A DNA stretch of 29,527 bases, from positions 1 to 29,527 of IMG/VR virus record IMGVR_UViG_3300046804_000856; one strand, 5' to 3'. The DNA is from a virus. The translations under genes and the position numbers were made by a program. Position 1 is the first letter of the stretch, and every line of letters starts with the position of its first letter. Of the stretch, positions 675-16,220 are shown one piece after another. The notes beneath the pieces are model-generated. The model was not told the origin of the DNA and searched no databases. It saw nothing but the letters and a program-made list of their open reading frames with translations.

Positions 675-3059
675 ATGAGCTTTAACGGTAGCGGCACATT
701 TGTCATTAACTCGGCGGGGCAGCCGGTTGTTGCCAACACGGTCATTTCTTCGACTGTGTTTAACGCGTTGACGGCGGATCTAGCCACCGGCCTCTCGACT
801 TGTATCACCAAGGACGGCCAAACAACGCCCACGGCTAACATTCCAATGGGCAACAACAAGATTACGGGGTTAGCGGCTGGCACCCTGGCGACCGACGCCG
901 CCAATCTTTCCCAGGTACAAAGCACCGCGGCCAAACTCATCACAACGGTTGCGGGCGCCGACACAATTACTGGAACATTGTTGCCAACGTTGACGGCTTA
1001 TGCCACCGGCCAAATGTTTTACTTTGTGTCGGTTGGCGCTAACACCGGCGCGGTGACGTTGAACATTGATGGCCTGGGCGCCAAAGCGGTCACGCGCGAT
1101 GGCAGTAGTGCCCTGGCAGCGGGTGACATTAACTCGGGCGAAATCGTGGTGGTGGTGTACGACGGTACGCGCTTCCAGATGATTAACGCCGCCAATTCGT
1201 TTGGCAACACGACGATTAACGGCACGCTCACCGTCACCGGCAAGAGCAACCTGGCAGAAGTCTCAACGCCAAGCATCAACGCAACGGTCGCTGCAATCAC
1301 AACGCTGACCGCCTCGGATGCGTCTGTCACCTCGGCCAACGCCAATTACGCACGGATTACCAATTTACACGCCACCGGCGCATCGGTTGCCAGCATTAAC
1401 GCCGCTGTGGCGTTGCTGACAACGGCAACGGTCACCAGCCTTACCGCAACCGGCGCAAGCATAGCCTCGGCCAATATCGGATCGTTAAATCTGTCGGGCG
1501 TTTCGGTTGCTTCGGCTAATTTCGGCGTGGCGAACGTCACCGATCTACGGGCAACAGGTGCATCGGTTACTTCGGCAAACCTCGGTAACGCGGTCATTAC
1601 GACGATGACGGTTACCGGCGCGTCGGTGGCCTCGGCAAACGTCGGCACAGCTGTTGTGACGGGCTTGACGGCTACAGGCGCATCTGTGGCATCAGCCAAC
1701 ATCGGCACCGCCCTGGTGACGCGCCTAGACGCCACAGGGGCATCGGTCGCTTCGATCAACGCGGCGGTGGCGTTGGTTACCACCGGCACGGTGACGAACC
1801 TCACCTCTACCAACGCCTCTATCGCCTCGGCCAATGTCGGGGTGGCTAACATCACAGATTTTCGTGCAGCAGGCGCATCGGTCACCTCTGCAAACGTCGG
1901 CACGGCGGTGGTCACTACGATGACCGTTACCGGGGCGTCTATTGCCTCGGCCAACATGGGGCGATTGGACGTTACCAACGCCTCGGCGGCATCAATCAAC
2001 GCTGCAGTCGCGCTGCTTACAACCGGCGCGGTGACCAACCTCACCAGTACGTCGGCCAGCATTGCCTCGGCAAACCTTGGTAACGCGCAAATTACAAGCG
2101 GCAGCATCGCCTCGGCTAATGTTGCAACCTTGCGATTTACTGGCGCATCGTCGGGTTACGTCGGATTTGTTGCTCAAACGTCTGCCGGATCGGTTACTTA
2201 CACATGGCCAAATGCCGATGGTGTTTCGGGCTATGTATTACGCACCAACGGATCTGGCACGTTGTCATGGGTTGCGCAATCTGGCGGCGGCGGTGGCGGT
2301 GACGTAACCGGCCCGGCATCGTCAACAGATAATGCGGTTGCTCGATTTGATCTTACAACTGGCAAAATCATTCAAAACAGCCAGGTTATTGTTGATGACA
2401 GCGGCACGGTTACGGGCGTCGCATCACTTGCAGCCACAACAGTAAGTGCAACGTCAGCCAATCTTGGCACGGCGGTTATTACGACGCTAACGGCGACTCA
2501 AGCATCCGTAGCATCAATCAACGCAGCGGTAGCGTTATTTACAACTGGCACGGTTACAACCTTAACATCCACCCAAGCATCGATTGCGTCAGCAAATGTG
2601 GGAACGTTTGTTGCGACAAACGCATCGATTGCGTCAGCGAATGCAAACATTCTGACCGTATCTAATGCCAGCGTAACGTCGGCAAACATTGCAACATTGA
2701 CGGTGACCGGCGCGAGCATTACGTCAATTAACGATCAATACGGAAAAATCCGTGCGATCCCGCAATCTGGATCAGATAAAACGTCCACCTATACCATTTC
2801 GGCAGGCGATAACGGCAGATTTATTGGCGTTGGCACCAGCGGAAAAATCATTATTCCAAACGCCACAATGGCAACTGGAGATGCGGTAACGCTGTATAAC
2901 GCAACGACGGGCAATGTCACCGTGGAATGCAGCATCAGCATTGCTTACATTGCTGGAACAAATACCGATAAAGCATCGGTAACATTAGCAACACGCGGCG
3001 TGGCAACTATTTTGTTTTTGAATAGCGACAATTGCGTGATGAGCGGAAACCTCACTTAA
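675..3059 (+). CDS. tail fibre protein with approx. 20-aa tandem repeats
   Basis: 794 residues. The N-terminus, starting MSFNGSGTFVINS and followed by a region reading MGNNKITGLAAGT, matches the virion-anchoring part common to phage tail fibres. Residues about 180-485 and 600-715 are tandem repeats of roughly 20 residues built on TGASVASANVGTAVVT, a pattern expected for an elongated trimeric beta fibre. Between them (about residues 488-585) lies a domain with TYTWPNADG, a GGGGGG linker and a segment starting GPASSTDNAVARFD, also familiar from phage fibres. The C-terminus is a short beta-rich domain. Start ATG 675 has GAGGG upstream. The DNA becomes visibly more A/T-ending in codon choice after about position 2200. 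Likely role: receptor-binding fibre or the shaft that carries the adhesin encoded next. Confidence 0.85.
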   Translation: MSFNGSGTFVINSAGQPVVANTVISSTVFNALTADLATGLSTCITKDGQTTPTANIPMGNNKITGLAAGTLATDAANLSQVQSTAAKLITTVAGADTITGTLLPTLTAYATGQMFYFVSVGANTGAVTLNIDGLGAKAVTRDGSSALAAGDINSGEIVVVVYDGTRFQMINAANSFGNTTINGTLTVTGKSNLAEVSTPSINATVAAITTLTASDASVTSANANYARITNLHATGASVASINAAVALLTTATVTSLTATGASIASANIGSLNLSGVSVASANFGVANVTDLRATGASVTSANLGNAVITTMTVTGASVASANVGTAVVTGLTATGASVASANIGTALVTRLDATGASVASINAAVALVTTGTVTNLTSTNASIASANVGVANITDFRAAGASVTSANVGTAVVTTMTVTGASIASANMGRLDVTNASAASINAAVALLTTGAVTNLTSTSASIASANLGNAQITSGSIASANVATLRFTGASSGYVGFVAQTSAGSVTYTWPNADGVSGYVLRTNGSGTLSWVAQSGGGGGGDVTGPASSTDNAVARFDLTTGKIIQNSQVIVDDSGTVTGVASLAATTVSATSANLGTAVITTLTATQASVASINAAVALFTTGTVTTLTSTQASIASANVGTFVATNASIASANANILTVSNASVTSANIATLTVTGASITSINDQYGKIRAIPQSGSDKTSTYTISAGDNGRFIGVGTSGKIIIPNATMATGDAVTLYNATTGNVTVECSISIAYIAGTNTDKASVTLATRGVATILFLNSDNCVMSGNLT
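1242..2740 (+). repeat. degenerate tandem repeats inside the tail fibre gene
   Basis: Roughly 60-bp units encode TGASVASANVG-like repeats, interrupted at about 2140-2430 by a non-repetitive domain. A longer variant containing SINAAVALVTTGTV recurs at intervals. Units differ at many synonymous positions, so the protein repeat is kept while the DNA has diverged. The lack of certain codons produces a long spurious antisense frame at 1346-2107. Confidence 0.8.
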
Positions 3060-5780: not shown

Positions 5781-5951
5781 TTATCGATTGAGCTCCTCGA
5801 GGAGCCGCTCCAGCCATTGCGCCTCGCGCATTAACCCGGCTCGCCGCATGCGGATCAGCACTACATCCGCCGAAAGATCTGTTTGCTGCCCATAAGCCCA
5901 GGGCGCGGCCTGCAGCTCACGCTCGAAAGCCTCATCGTCATCATCCGGCAT
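5781..5951 (-). CDS. small acidic hypothetical protein, end of early operon
   Basis: 56 residues starting MPDDDDEAFERELQAAPWAY, with a helical C-terminal half ending in LERLLEELNR. I place the start at 5951 because its ATG shares a base with the TAA of the next upstream gene (TAATG); a longer version from 5987 would overlap that gene heavily. No family recognised. It is the last gene of the leftward operon and its stop lies 6 bases from the stop of the endolysin gene on the other strand. Confidence 0.6.
   Translation of the reverse strand: MPDDDDEAFERELQAAPWAYGQQTDLSADVVLIRMRRAGLMREAQWLERLLEELNR
5792..5805. other. 14-bp perfect palindrome at the convergence of two operons
   Basis: GCTCCTCGAGGAGC lies just inside the 3' end of the last leftward gene, 18 bases past the endolysin stop. 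It has no loop and no T-tract on either strand, so a terminator role is weak. It contains the hexamer CTCGAG, which is abundant across the window. Confidence 0.35.
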
Positions 5952-6070
5952 TACAGATAATCCATGCCGTGACGCCGACAGGCCCAATTAGGTGGCTCAG
6001 AAACGTACCGCCAATCATCATTACGCCGTTTTGATAACAACCATTCGATCATCAAAATCAACATGTTCAT
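5951..6070 (-). CDS. 39-aa hypothetical protein
   Basis: The ATG at 6070 overlaps the upstream TGA (ATGA) and the TAA overlaps the downstream ATG (TAATG). The product starts MNMLILMIEWLLSKRR, a hydrophobic N-terminus followed by basic residues, then NDDWRYVSEPPNWACRRHG. Both overlaps match the coupling style of the operon, which is the main support. It may be membrane-associated. No family recognised. Confidence 0.55.
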   Translation of the reverse strand: MNMLILMIEWLLSKRRNDDWRYVSEPPNWACRRHGMDYL

Positions 6071-9969: not shown

Positions 9970-10550
9970 GCGTAATAGCTGAAATACCGGGGTTTAAACA
10001 TTTGCTGACCGTTTACTTCGATCAGCGGTTGCTCGGGGTATGCCCACTCGCTATTGGTAATCTTCACACTTGGGCTACCCGAAGCCATGCTCACTTTTCG
10101 GTTAAATGGCTTGCCAATAAACTTGTTTGGCACCGGGGTACACTCACCGCTCATAAACCCGGTTTCCATCGTGTTTTGAGCCACTTCGCACAGCGTTACT
10201 GAATTACGGGTTACCCCAACCACCTGGTAATACTGCACGTTGGTTTGCTCCCAACCCCAGCTGCTCCGCAAGATCTCGCCAACTTTTAACGTGTGCGGTG
10301 CATGCTGCTTGGCGCGGCGCTCAAGTTTTTTAGCTTCCCAGGCCTCGAGCCCGCTCACCGTTTCTTCGATCTTTTTCTGAATTTCACCCTGGTTTCTAAA
10401 CATGTGCCACCAGGTTGGTTTGCCAGCTTTTCCCTTAAATGCCATGGCGTGGAGTTTTCCGCCAAATTCTTTTTGGTACACCAGGAGCTGCGTCCCTTCA
10501 TGGATGTACACCAGGGAATAACCAGTGGGAATATGTCGTTCTGTTTTCAT
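9966..10550 (-). CDS. conserved hypothetical phage/plasmid protein
   Basis: 194 residues from ATG 10550 (MKTERHIPTGYSLVY). A longer reading from 10586 merely translates the RBS repeat, so I reject it. The N-terminal half contains GYSLVYIHEGTQ and GKPTWWHMFRNQ; the C-terminal half has LKVGEILRSSWGWEQTNVQY, VVGVTRNSVTL, MSGECTPVPNKFIGKPF and a closing W/Y-rich stretch. Proteins with the SSWGxxQTN pattern are widespread in phages and plasmids, with no known function that I can name. It has its own promoter/operator at 10591-10618. Its stop lies inside the -35 region of the next promoter. Confidence 0.75.
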   Translation of the reverse strand: MKTERHIPTGYSLVYIHEGTQLLVYQKEFGGKLHAMAFKGKAGKPTWWHMFRNQGEIQKKIEETVSGLEAWEAKKLERRAKQHAPHTLKVGEILRSSWGWEQTNVQYYQVVGVTRNSVTLCEVAQNTMETGFMSGECTPVPNKFIGKPFNRKVSMASGSPSVKITNSEWAYPEQPLIEVNGQQMFKPRYFSYYA

Positions 10551-10553
10551 ACT

Positions 10554-10569
10554 AACCTCTCTCTTGGTT
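10554..10569 (-). promoter_or_regulatory. 16-nt RBS repeat, copy 2
   Basis: AACCAAGAGAGAGGTT read leftward, ending 3 bases before ATG 10550. It supplies the ribosome binding site of the 194-aa gene and is identical to the three other copies. Confidence 0.8.
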
Positions 10570-10590
10570 GTGTGTTTTTTCAACACCTAT

Positions 10591-10618
10591 AGTTTACCAG
10601 GGTAAAGCAAGAAGTCAA
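10591..10618 (-). promoter_or_regulatory. leftward early promoter with overlapping operator
   Basis: Leftward -35 TTGACT (10613-10618), 16-bp spacer, -10 TAAACT (10591-10596). The perfect dyad TTTACCAGGGTAAA (10593-10606) covers the -10 and spacer. It drives the 194-aa gene. The -35 overlaps the stop codon of the upstream 48-aa gene. Confidence 0.7.
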
Positions 10619-10761
10619 CTTGCTAACCGCTGAGTGCGGTACCCGGTGATACGGAACCAATTGCCCGTTTTCACGCATTCCACATCATAAGTGCCGCATG
10701 GATGAACCTTCATAATGCGGACCTTGCCAATCGACAACTCGATGATTTGACCAACTTTCAT
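10615..10761 (-). CDS. 48-aa beta-rich hypothetical protein
   Basis: Starts MKVGQIIELSIGKVRIMKVH and ends WFRITGYRTQRLAS. Alternating hydrophobic strands with Gly turns suggest a small SH3-like barrel. ATG 10761 lies 3 bases after an RBS repeat (10765-10780), which supports it despite its size. It has two Cys. Function unknown; it may travel on the transcript from the 11006-11033 promoter. Confidence 0.65.
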   Translation of the reverse strand: MKVGQIIELSIGKVRIMKVHPCGTYDVECVKTGNWFRITGYRTQRLAS

Positions 10762-10764
10762 AAA

Positions 10765-10780
10765 AACCTCTCTCTTGGTT
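10765..10780 (-). promoter_or_regulatory. 16-nt RBS repeat, copy 3
   Basis: AACCAAGAGAGAGGTT read leftward, ending 3 bases before ATG 10761 of the 48-aa gene. Its first base is shared with the stop codon of the upstream zinc-ribbon gene. Confidence 0.8.
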
Positions 10781-10962
10781 TACGGGTGGTAAGCGCCAGT
10801 GCCGCCACAACGATGACAAACATACGGCAAGCCACTTTCTTCCTCGATGCCGTGGTCGCCTTCGCCTTTGCAGCTAAGACATAGCCCTAACGACGCCAGG
10901 GCATCGTAATAAGCCTCCTCGGCTTTAATTTCCGCATATTCGAGCCATTCGTTAACAAACAT
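10780..10962 (-). CDS. 60-aa DnaJ-type zinc-ribbon protein
   Basis: From ATG 10962 (MFVNEWLEYAEIKAEEAYYD), chosen because an RBS repeat ends 3 bases upstream; a frame from 11001 only reads through that repeat. A helix (1-28) precedes two CxxCxGxG-like knuckles: CLSCKGEGD (about 29-37) and CHRCGGTGA (about 49-57). These form a DnaJ-like zinc ribbon, usually a protein or nucleic acid contact module. It is the first gene of the leftward early region, directly under the 11006-11033 promoter, so one of the first proteins made. Confidence 0.75.
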   Translation of the reverse strand: MFVNEWLEYAEIKAEEAYYDALASLGLCLSCKGEGDHGIEEESGLPYVCHRCGGTGAYHP

Positions 10963-10965
10963 ACA

Positions 10966-10981
10966 AACCTCTCTCTTGGTT
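10966..10981 (-). promoter_or_regulatory. 16-nt RBS repeat, copy 4
   Basis: AACCAAGAGAGAGGTT read leftward, 3 bases before ATG 10962 of the zinc-ribbon gene. It lies in the short leader of the first leftward transcript. Confidence 0.8.
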
Positions 10982-11005
10982 TTTCTGGTTTTTCTCGACA
11001 CGGAT

Positions 11006-11033
11006 ATTTTACCAAAGTAAAGCAGGGATGCAA
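11006..11033 (-). promoter_or_regulatory. leftward early promoter with operator variant
   Basis: Leftward -35 TTGCAT (11028-11033), 16-bp spacer, -10 TAAAAT (11006-11011). The dyad TTTACCAAAGTAAA (11008-11021) overlaps it, with one arm change against the perfect copies. It is arranged back to back with the cro promoter, like lambda PL/PR compressed into one region. Confidence 0.65.
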
Positions 11034-11037
11034 CACC

Positions 11038-11067
11038 TTGCGCGCTTTTTTTTAACTACGGTAAAAT
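11038..11067 (+). promoter_or_regulatory. rightward promoter of the cro-like gene
   Basis: -35 TTGCGC (11038-11043), 18-bp spacer with a T8 run, -10 TAAAAT (11062-11067). A weak operator match, TTTAACTACGGTAAA (11051-11065), overlaps it. Expected transcript start is at or within a base or two of the cro ATG (11074), so the mRNA may be leaderless. Confidence 0.55.
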
Positions 11068-11073
11068 GCCGAA

Positions 11074-11247
11074 ATGACACCTCAAGACCTACTCAAGCAT
11101 TACGGCAGTCAGCGGGCGATTGCCAGGGCATTCGGGGTTACCGATGCCGCCGTGCTCAAATGGCTTAGGGCCGGCGTACTGCCACCCCTTAGGGCATACC
11201 AGGCCAGGGACCTCCTAGGGCGTCCAGGGCGTTCCAGGCGCGTTTAA
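11074..11247 (+). CDS. Cro-like helix-turn-helix repressor
   Basis: 57 residues, the size of Cro-type proteins. After MTPQDLLKHY comes GSQRAIARAFGVTDAAVLKW (11-30), a clear helix-turn-helix: helix 2 at about 12-19, turn FGV, recognition helix TDAAVLKWLRAG. Then LPPLRAYQARDL, typical of the Cro/YdaS group, and a basic tail. It is divergent from the leftward early operon and sits beside the shared dyads, so it is the natural binder of TTTACC-GGTAAA sites. No Shine-Dalgarno is visible, which fits a leaderless mRNA. No CI-like partner gene is seen in the window. Confidence 0.82.
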   Translation: MTPQDLLKHYGSQRAIARAFGVTDAAVLKWLRAGVLPPLRAYQARDLLGRPGRSRRV

Positions 11248-11271
11248 TGACGGTTTATACGGCCCTAAACG

Positions 11272-11298
11272 AAAAACCCCGGCTGTGGGTGCCGGGGC
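11272..11298 (-). terminator. leftward intrinsic terminator
   Basis: Leftward: stem CCCCGGC, loop ACCCACA, stem GCCGGGG, then TTTTT (complement of 11272-11276). The T-tract exists only on this strand, so it ends leftward transcripts entering from the right, just before they would run antisense into cro. Confidence 0.75.
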
Positions 11299-11345
11299 TT
11301 GACGGAGCCGGGAGGAGGCTCTACGCTCGGGATGCTAGTCGAGGT
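11272..11345 (-). ncRNA. predicted OOP-like small RNA with anti-Shine-Dalgarno loop
   Basis: A leftward promoter (11352-11381) and an intrinsic terminator (11272-11298) bracket about 74 nt. Inside, GAGCC and GGCTC (11305-11321) form a hairpin whose loop, read leftward, is TCCTCCC. That loop is the exact complement of GGGAGGA, the ribosome binding site at 11626-11632 of the putative replication gene at 11636. Location between cro and the replication gene, leftward direction and length all parallel lambda OOP RNA, a 77-nt leftward RNA between cII and O. Homology is not claimed. The RNA is a prediction from sequence alone. Confidence 0.5.
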
Positions 11346-11351
11346 GCCGGA

Positions 11352-11381
11352 AAGATAGCTGCCTGGGAGGGCCGCTGTCAA
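11352..11381 (-). promoter_or_regulatory. promoter of the predicted leftward small RNA
   Basis: Leftward -35 TTGACA (11376-11381, perfect consensus), 18-bp spacer, -10 TATCTT (11352-11357). The start would fall near 11345. No copy of the TTTACC-GGTAAA dyad overlaps it, so it may be constitutive. Confidence 0.5.
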
Positions 11382-11399
11382 ATATTCCCCACCTCCCAG
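11363..11399 (+). other. hairpin with an anti-RBS arm in the rightward leader
   Basis: CTGGGAGG (11363-11370) and CCTCCCAG (11392-11399) form a perfect 8-bp stem. A second copy of CTGGGAGG (11624-11631) is the ribosome binding site of the gene at 11636, so the CCTCCCAG arm could instead pair with and block it. Confidence 0.5.
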
Positions 11400-11635
11400 C
11401 TCGGGAATCCTGGTCGGGGCAACAACGCGCAGGAAACCTTAAACCCAAGCCGGGGCAGCCAGCCCTTGGGCGCGCAGCGTGTAGCGGAGAAGCGCGAATG
11501 GCACCGGGAAACCGGCAAGAGTAGACCGCAGCAGGGTGGCTCCGTCAGTCACAATCTCTGCACGATGGCTGTAGGCGTATTGCGCCTTAACGCCGTGCAG
11601 AGTTCACCATCAGTCATTAGTTTCTGGGAGGAAAC

Positions 11636-12166
11636 ATGATCGAAAACCTTAACGTTGAAGCCTGGGATCGTTGGAAAGCTTATCGGGTTGCGATCCGTAA
11701 ACCGATCAAACCAGCCAGTGAACATGCGATGCAGCTGGCGCTCTCGAGGTACGGTGCTGACCAGGCTGAAGTGGTTAATCAAAGCATCAGCAACCAGTGG
11801 CAAGGCCTGTTTGACTTAAAACGCGCTAAACCCGCCCCTGGCGAAAAACCAAAAAAGTCCGTTGAGCAGCTCACAGCCGATGCAGCTGCCTGGGAATATC
11901 ATATCCGCGCTGCCGAACGTTCCTGGCATGAAAAGATCCAAGATCCGTTTGGGCGCTTAAAACTGTGCGAGGCGCTGTGGTCGCGATACACCTGTGAGGC
12001 TGGGCCGGAGATTGAAGATAAGCTGGAGTGGCTAAAAAGCGTGATTGCGAAAAACTTGAAGGAGGCCAGCGCGAAGTCCGTGCTTGATGATCCGCACTTG
12101 CGCACGATGGTTTGGTGTTTTTTTGGTGCGAGCGGGATTCGCCGGCTGCAGGATCGTAGCGCGTGA
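11636..12166 (+). CDS. putative phage replication protein
   Basis: 176 residues. The N-terminal region, AWDRWKAYRVAIRKPIKPAS (9-28) through QSISNQWQGLFDLKR, is a module often found in phage replication initiators and accessory proteins; there it usually precedes or follows a DNA-binding or helicase-loader part. The C-terminal half is helical with many Trp and no P-loop, so it is not a helicase. Strong ribosome binding site GGGAGGA three bases before ATG 11636. It occupies the place of lambda O after cro. No DNA polymerase or helicase gene is seen in the window, so host replication enzymes are probably recruited. Confidence 0.5.
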   Translation: MIENLNVEAWDRWKAYRVAIRKPIKPASEHAMQLALSRYGADQAEVVNQSISNQWQGLFDLKRAKPAPGEKPKKSVEQLTADAAAWEYHIRAAERSWHEKIQDPFGRLKLCEALWSRYTCEAGPEIEDKLEWLKSVIAKNLKEASAKSVLDDPHLRTMVWCFFGASGIRRLQDRSA

Positions 12167-14805: not shown

Positions 14806-15177
14806 ATGGCTAATCACAAAACCGCTGCCGAATTTGTCGGCGTGTTGTTACATAGCAGCACGGCCACTCATTTTTTGCATTTGCAAACCGCCAGTTACGC
14901 AGCCCACAAGGCGCTCGGTAGTTATTACGAATCGATTATCGATTTAGCCGACAAATACGCAGAGGCTTACCAGGGACATTTCGGCATTATTCCGCTGAAC
15001 GATTACCCCGATGGGTTCAAAGTCCAGGCTGATGCGGCCAAATACGCAAACAGTCTATTAACTTTTGTGAAGGGCATCCGCAAGGAATTGCCGCCCGAAA
15101 CAGATCTACAAAACATCATCGATGAGATCGTCGGCGAGATCAGCGCGCTGATTTATAAGCTCGAGCGATTCAAATAA
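14806..15177 (+). CDS. DUF5856-like helical protein
   Basis: 123 residues. Motifs KTAAEFVGVLLHSSTATHFLHLQTASYAAHKALGSYYE (5-42) and ADKYAEAYQGHFGI fit a conserved phage family with a Dps/ferritin-like four-helix look, labelled DUF5856 as I recall it. Whether it binds metal or DNA is not shown; His and Glu are present in helical positions. First gene of the long rightward late stretch; its stop overlaps the next start (TAATG). Confidence 0.65.
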   Translation: MANHKTAAEFVGVLLHSSTATHFLHLQTASYAAHKALGSYYESIIDLADKYAEAYQGHFGIIPLNDYPDGFKVQADAAKYANSLLTFVKGIRKELPPETDLQNIIDEIVGEISALIYKLERFK

Positions 15178-16220
15178 TGGGCAGGCGCGAGGAGATTGCC
15201 GCGGCTCTCCAGCGCATGACGAGCCTGGACCAACCGCAAGATCAAACCGGCGGCGAGATCGCGGCAGATATTGCCCTGGGGTTTACGCCGCTCGCAGTTC
15301 CGCAAAGCGCGCGCGACCTGGAACGCGCCAGGCGCCAGGGCGACAAGCTCGGCATGTTGTTGGCCGGTGTTGGCATGGTGCCGGTGGTGGGTGGGCTGAT
15401 GAAAGGCGGCAAAACAGCCGTTAAAGCCATCGACAAAGCAATTGAAGCGCGGTTTTTTGATCGGTTAACTAAGGATTTTGAGGGATTAAAAGCCGAATAC
15501 GCTGCGATTCCCGAAACCAAGGGCGGCAAAGTGCTCAACACGGATGCAGCCCGAGAGCTGTCACCCGACTACCTGGCCGATCGCACCCGATCTGCAGACG
15601 TACATGAGCCCTCGAGCGCATTCATCAAGCGCGTATTTGCCGAGCGGTTGGCACAACCGACGCCAGCAGGGAAAGATCCCGTAGTGATATTTACCGCAGG
15701 AGGAACGGGCGCCGGCAAAACCTCGGGCTTAAAGGGCTTACGGGAAACCGATCCTAGGATCGACCGCGCGGAGCTCGAGTACGACACCAACATGAACAAA
15801 TTTAGCTCGGCGAAAAAGAAAATCGACGAGGTGCTTAAAAGTGGCCGCCAGGCCCAGGTGTATTTCACCTATCGCAACCCGGTTGAAGCCTTGGATCAAG
15901 GCGCCTTGACGCGCGCCATGGACCAGGAGGCCGAATTCGGCAGCGGGCGCACGGTTCCTTTATCCGAGCATTTGAACACCCATATCGGCTCCAGGGACGT
16001 TATGGAGAAGCTGCAGAAAGAGTACGGCGACAATCCTAACTTCCGCTTAACGGTCATTGACAACAGCCGCGGCCGAGGCAACGCCGTGCTGTCATCACTG
16101 GATAATTTGCCCAAATTAGACGAAAATAAGGTGCGAGATGAATTACGACAAACCCTCGAAAAAGCCAGAGCCGAGAAAAGAATCTCTGAGAAGGTCTATC
16201 GAGGCTTTGCAGCGTACTAA
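15177..16220 (+). CDS. zeta-toxin-like P-loop protein
   Basis: 347 residues. Residues 1-95 form a Gly-rich, partly hydrophobic region (DIALGFTPLAVPQSARDLE, LLAGVGMVPVVGGLMKGG) of the kind seen in phage structural or ejection proteins. The second part has LNTDAARELSPDY (120-132), VHEPSSAFIKRVFAERL (142-158) and VVIFTAGGTGAGKTSG (169-184) with Walker A at 175-182, the layout of zeta-toxin/AAA phage proteins. Zeta kinases phosphorylate UDP-GlcNAc; here the activity is unproven. No antitoxin gene is adjacent. Start ATG 15177 shares a base with the preceding TAA. The N-terminal region suggests it might be packaged in the virion, an inference. Confidence 0.65.
   Translation: MGRREEIAAALQRMTSLDQPQDQTGGEIAADIALGFTPLAVPQSARDLERARRQGDKLGMLLAGVGMVPVVGGLMKGGKTAVKAIDKAIEARFFDRLTKDFEGLKAEYAAIPETKGGKVLNTDAARELSPDYLADRTRSADVHEPSSAFIKRVFAERLAQPTPAGKDPVVIFTAGGTGAGKTSGLKGLRETDPRIDRAELEYDTNMNKFSSAKKKIDEVLKSGRQAQVYFTYRNPVEALDQGALTRAMDQEAEFGSGRTVPLSEHLNTHIGSRDVMEKLQKEYGDNPNFRLTVIDNSRGRGNAVLSSLDNLPKLDENKVRDELRQTLEKARAEKRISEKVYRGFAAY

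Follow-up and report, generated by a model that had tools for sequence, protein, structure and literature searches.

In phage lambda, the replication protein O is full length and the origin iterons lie inside its gene. Phages P1 and P7 encode C4, a structured RNA proposed to pair with a ribosome binding site (RBS), and the RNA I/RNA II system of ColE1 places opposed promoters, an antisense RNA and a structured transcript at the replication region. In phage HK022, put is a structured RNA found directly behind an early promoter. The OOP RNA of lambda is a leftward, self-terminating RNA of 77 nt, 55 nt of which overlap the 3′-end of cII (PMC3349717). The lambda promoter pO lowers transcription from pR, loss of pO harms replication, and OOP RNA does not act in trans on the O mRNA (PMC3985674).

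The window analysed here is a 29.5-kb IMG/VR virus record (29,527 nt), in which genes run leftward from about position 11000 and rightward from 11074. Between its cro-like and O-like genes lie a predicted OOP-like leftward unit, a rightward promoter that opposes it and a structured RNA (Table 1). Related loci were collected with an O-like protein search (63 loci), an 18-mer search (at least 120 stretches) and a profile of the region (at least 148 matches, in at least 104 distinct phage sequences), and promoters were counted in the 85 distinct upstream regions of sufficient length. Judging from these sequence comparisons, the locus is kept across a large group of uncultivated phages; as the relatives share descent, the counts given below are not independent events. 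Searches with blastn against INPHARED phages and against plasmids returned no match to the region. The 35 exact 18-mer matches in bacterial genomes are about the number expected by chance for 257 Gb, with the sole exception of a contig from a Colwellia metagenome-assembled genome (MAG; L187).

The O-like protein of the window matches phrog_678 (E 6e-11) solely at positions 222–310 of 346, which is the C-terminal part of the family. It does not contain the N-terminal origin-binding helix-turn-helix (HTH) domain of lambda O, and the frame upstream of the gene closes after five codons. No convincing iterons or tandem repeats were detected in this gene, and no iteron array was found. A 130-aa frame at 11247–11639 resembles no protein family above cut-off in the Pfam and PHROG comparisons; a coding explanation for this interval was thus rejected, and the interval shows RNA covariation instead (see below). 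No tRNA or tmRNA was found. The minimum of the cumulative GC skew falls on the locus (near 11000–11500, within 10501–11500); this would agree with an origin, but gene direction is a confounder.

Table 1. Features of the region between the cro-like and O-like genes, with window coordinates.
Feature	Coordinates	Strand	Basis
Cro-like repressor gene, 57 aa	11074..11247	+	Pfam P22_Cro, E 1.8e-11, above curated cut-off; PHROG transcriptional regulator, E 1.7e-10
Predicted OOP-like RNA (leftward, 74 nt) with three hairpins, of which the final one is the terminator	11272..11345	-	Fold; conservation
Leftward intrinsic terminator, stem 11300-11274, then TTTTT	11274..11300	-	AAACGA(CA)AA signature in relatives
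Rightward promoter TTGACG, 17 nt, TACGCT; opposes the leftward promoter	11299..11327	+	76/76 relatives
Hairpin with loop UCCUCCC (GAGCC-GGGAGGA-GGCTC on +); doubles as spacer of the rightward promoter	11305..11321	-	Palindrome in relatives
Hairpin P0 in the leader of the rightward transcript; the leftward -10 and -35 lie within it	11341..11395	+	66/66 folded leaders
Leftward promoter TTGACA (11381-11376), 18-nt spacer, TATCTT (11357-11352)	11352..11381	-	Conserved in relatives
Type I structured RNA core, ~218 nt, two pseudoknots	11400..11617	+	Covariation in the 50-sequence alignment A1
Pseudoknot a: P2 loop 11458-11461 pairs with 11499-11502	11458..11502	+	Compensatory exchanges in 3/4 pairs
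Pseudoknot b: P4 loop 11484-11488 pairs with 11525-11529	11484..11529	+	Compensatory changes in 4/5 pairs
Direct repeats on either side of hairpin P7: TCAGTCA (11545-11551), TCAGTCAT (11610-11617)	11545..11617	+	Joint changes
GGGAGGA, RBS of the O-like gene	11626..11632	+	Sequence
O-like replication gene, 176 aa, without N-terminal DNA-binding domain	11636..12166	+	phrog_678 match

All the leftward elements proposed in the earlier note, which comprised a -35 box, an 18-nt spacer, a -10 box and a 74-nt unit ending in a GC-stem terminator with TTTTT, are found in the window at the positions given there. Scanning for consensus matches alone, promoters and terminators were no commoner than in shuffled DNA. 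The leftward unit is nevertheless very probably real, because its promoter, terminator and length are conserved among relatives. The -35 hexamer TTGACA is exact in 78 of the 85 upstream regions, and every one of these 78 has a -10 box with A2 and T6 at a spacing of 16–18 nt; 41 regions reach a -10 score of at least 4, against a background of 1% at shifted positions. The terminator signature AAACGA(CA)AA is present in 90/96 relatives, and the predicted RNA, which in the window would start at about 11345, measures 66–75 nt across the group. The earlier note had called for structure prediction, and a 79-nt leftward stretch indeed folds into three hairpins far better than shuffled sequences (-32.2 kcal/mol, z -4.35, 0/200 shuffles as good). 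The palindrome of the UCCUCCC hairpin is kept in 90/91 relatives, its arms and loop changing.

The parallel to lambda OOP drawn in the earlier note thus stands for direction, a size of about 70 nt and position between the cro-like and O-like genes, and the predicted RNA is also self-terminating. As in lambda, a conserved leftward promoter and intrinsic terminator would yield an RNA of about 70–80 nt beside the O gene and opposing rightward transcription (66–75 nt predicted, compared with 77 nt in lambda). The cII overlap does not carry over: the window has no cII-like gene, and its cro-like gene ends at 11247, beyond the end of the leftward RNA at 11272. Unlike OOP, the leftward RNA overlaps no recognised gene and spans a second, rightward promoter. 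By itself, it would be another OOP-like RNA of a known kind. The window further differs from lambda in the structured RNA between leftward unit and O gene, the truncation of O and the lack of an iteron array in the O-like gene; lambda is not known to have a comparable RNA at that place.

The earlier note had overlooked the rightward promoter that shares the leftward hairpin, as well as the ~218-nt structured RNA between the leftward unit and the RBS. The rightward promoter has TA---T at 17–18 nt in all 76 relatives with TTGACG, and the two opposed -35 boxes lie 76–81 nt apart across the group. With starts placed at 11334 (+) and 11345 (-), the 5′-ends of the two transcripts would overlap by about 12 nt. 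The first ~65 nt of the rightward RNA are predicted to form a long hairpin, whose outer helix appears in each of 66 distinct leaders folded singly and whose inner palindrome is kept in 86/86 relatives. Mismatches in the leader hairpin are G.T in 29 cases and A.C in 4, an excess which argues for an RNA on the + strand. On the comparison of relatives, both promoters, the leftward terminator and the leader hairpin can be regarded as established parts of the locus. The loops of the leftward RNA and the leader hairpin match each other more than in shuffles (p=0.0005); the match holds in some clades only and is a lead. It is also conceivable that the two palindromes are repressor operators and that no functional leftward RNA exists, since both lie within promoter spacers (90/91 and 86/86 relatives). 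The G.T/A.C ratio of the right-hand palindrome (17 vs 10) is not decisive here. Such an operator function is nonetheless improbable, as the two palindromes within a genome have different arms, which vary freely among phages while the hairpin form stays, and as a U-tract terminator is conserved, its distance from the leftward promoter being fixed.

The arrangement resembles that of ColE1 in its opposed promoters, predicted antisense RNA and structured transcript; in the window, however, the overlap would comprise only the ~12 nt at both 5′-ends, and the RNA precedes a protein gene. The earlier note had proposed that the leftward RNA acts in trans, its loop pairing with the RBS of the O-like gene to time O translation and hence replication. 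The sequence confirms that the TCCTCCC loop is the exact complement of GGGAGGA at the RBS, and this 7-mer occurs at two sites only on both strands of the whole window, at 11310 (the complement of the loop itself) and at 11626. The RBS of the 11636 gene is also the best target among 35 gene starts (-14.7 kcal/mol; next -11.1). Among 45 relatives, however, a match to the whole loop lies in the RBS region of two only, the window and L007, the latter likewise with 7 nt. The mean shared length is 3.6 nt vs 3.7 nt for shuffled partners (permutation, p=0.80), and loci with a gene directly downstream give p=0.33. In relatives, promoter, terminator and hairpin persist while the loop no longer complements the RBS, an outcome which the earlier note had itself named beforehand as evidence against the idea. 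C-rich loops match purine-rich RBSs through composition, and several relatives have an inserted methyltransferase, nuclease or other gene, and not the replication gene, next to the RNA, between it and O. Anti-RBS pairing was rejected as a conserved mechanism by the permutation result; as a general mechanism it is unlikely, and timing of O translation by this RNA in trans is very improbable, although pairing in the window phage alone is possible.

The rightward transcript would continue from the leader hairpin into the type I structured RNA, of which at least 104 distinct copies were found. Alignment A1 (n=50) was built by sequence and not fitted to the structure. In it, 96.7% of cells in the 49-pair structure are paired, compared with 29–42% when partners are slid, a control that favours the structure because the structure was read from the same sequences. 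The count of compensatory changes does not rest on that control alone: 27/49 base pairs show changes on both sides (double compensatory), and the covariation score exceeds that of each of 500 shuffles. Independently, a mutual-information scan of all column pairs ranked the helices, including both pseudoknots, at the top. Mismatches are G.T in 90 cells and A.C in 20, so that the RNA lies on the O-coding (+) strand; a minus-strand RNA was rejected on this asymmetry in core and leader. The P6 loop is a GNRA tetraloop in 67/94 copies, and unpaired stretches are strongly conserved. The comparison of relatives therefore carries both structure and strand, and it is strongly supported that the type I RNA is a new structured RNA family with a common fold on one strand.

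Its novelty rests on Rfam 15, database and literature searches. None of the 4227 covariance models of Rfam 15 matched the window at gathering scores, and at E ≤ 10 only unrelated low scores far below cut-off were obtained; a second locus (L022), searched at E ≤ 10, likewise matched no family. No description of the type I RNA was found in the literature, with the search restricted to open-licence papers. The leftward RNA is, like P1/P7 C4, a structured phage RNA for which pairing with an RBS has been proposed; it differs from C4 in the lack of an Rfam match at gathering scores and in its unconserved RBS complementarity. The two copies of the TCAGTCA(T) repeat come after GGCTCC and TCACC and change jointly, to ACAGTCAT in L049 and L052 and to AAGGTCAAA in L048, with a 12-nt CCAGCGTGTGCA pair in L215. 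A role of the repeats as guides to other phage sites was considered and rejected, as the contigs show no enrichment of the repeat complement.

A further 21 O-like loci carry a different core (type II), which ends in ..CCGAGCAT. Those with enough upstream sequence agree with the type I loci in cro gene, terminator, opposed promoters and leader. The type II RNA of L023 has no Rfam match at E ≤ 1. Of the N-terminally truncated O-like genes, 57 have enough upstream sequence, and all of these carry one of the two RNA types, 36 type I (window included) and 21 type II, the divergent L215 being left aside. The sole full-length O in the set (L066), which has an HTH domain ahead of the shared part and an adjoining DnaC-like loader, has neither type. 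Four annotated control phages with related O-like sequences gave no match to the RNA model. The co-occurrence of RNA and truncated O, apparent from this comparison, suggests that the RNA serves replication; as the loci are related, it may also reflect common descent and not function. In nearly all loci with room, the RNA holds its position between the cro-like and O-like genes, and it stays where the O-like gene has shrunk to ~107–127 aa or has been lost (L175).

Examples of type II at the same site are L023 (5687–5894), L037 (5331–5536) and L042 (5296–5513). Type II has CTTAAAT..CCGGGGCGG in common with type I, of which, by sequence, it may be a distant homologue. In L215 (Manatee Spring phage, MW202691), an element at 5906–5993 takes the same position as type I with a different sequence; its 12-nt direct repeats lie upstream of a truncated O gene. 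The Colwellia contig (L187, 890–1184) carries a distant homologue of the structured RNA with a nearly identical 3′ repeat-hairpin-repeat core, and an HNH nuclease gene is found directly 3′ of it. Its O-like gene lies ~3.2 kb downstream of the RNA, and the match again starts only past the N-terminal part. In eight loci (L010, L020, L031, L037, L041, L042, L086 and L108), the interval that separates the RNA from the O-like gene contains inserted genes for HNH or Vsr-like nucleases, methyltransferases and others, and it looks like a favoured insertion site.

Taken together, the locus would be a phage replication control with two promoters face to face. The leftward promoter would give a terminated RNA of ~70 nt that crosses the entire rightward promoter, and the rightward promoter would give the leader hairpin, the ~218-nt pseudoknotted RNA and the mRNA of an O-like protein without an origin-binding domain. 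Leftward transcription most likely acts as a brake by interfering in cis with the rightward promoter. Its RNA would be antisense to any read-through from cro and to the initial ~12 nt of the rightward transcript; it is most likely not an in-trans blocker of the O-gene RBS. The cis brake has a precedent in lambda pO (PMC3985674). The structured RNA, for its part, most likely serves replication initiation, where it would do part of what the absent O domain does elsewhere. We give about an even chance to the joint reading that the leftward unit brakes rightward transcription in cis and the structured RNA serves replication initiation. A more specific version can be put forward tentatively, namely that a pseudoknotted RNA, in two interchangeable types, replaced the DNA-binding half of the initiator and marks or primes the origin with the C-terminal O domain, its rate of synthesis being tuned by the opposing OOP-like promoter.

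With modest confidence, replication initiation is favoured for the structured RNA over antitermination or a separate function in trans. If it were a cis-acting antiterminator or leader that RNA polymerase reads on entering the rightward operon, it would resemble HK022 put in lying directly behind an early promoter; it is indeed the first element behind the promoter whichever gene comes next, and the conserved unpaired stretches would suit this role. It is, however, far larger than put and pseudoknotted, and it occurs at a single place, the loci searched having given no further copy that could serve the leftward operon. No rightward terminator was recognised just downstream either. These points leave this explanation rather doubtful. 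A separate trans-acting RNA, for example one that binds a host protein and merely sits within the replication operon, could account for its retention where the O-like gene shrinks or disappears and for its place beside an HNH nuclease gene in the Colwellia contig. That too is unlikely, given the position held between the cro-like and O-like genes and the alternation of two RNA types at exactly one site.

If the structured RNA does take part in replication initiation, an RNA would stand in for a protein domain in a phage group that is common, and the role of OOP/pO-type opposed transcription at lambdoid origins would be reopened. Even without a function, the type I RNA is a structured family that has strong support and no counterpart in Rfam, and a second type occupies the same site in other loci. 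What is new here is the structured RNA and its pairing with a truncated initiator, and the pseudoknots, direct repeats and opposed promoters of the locus offer precise testable elements.

Several other features were observed in the window. TTTACC-N3-GTAAA-like sites near the divergent early promoters (~10600, 11011 and 11055) are possible Cro operators. The block AACCAAGAGAGAGGT is repeated before several leftward genes (10548–10609, 10759–10781 and 10960–10982) and is apparently a common ribosome-binding leader. A 794-aa protein (675–3059) contains 60-bp tandem repeats at 1606–1747. Shortly upstream of the packaging genes, a 347-aa protein (15177–16220) contains a zeta-toxin-like kinase domain (Pfam E 1.2e-13).
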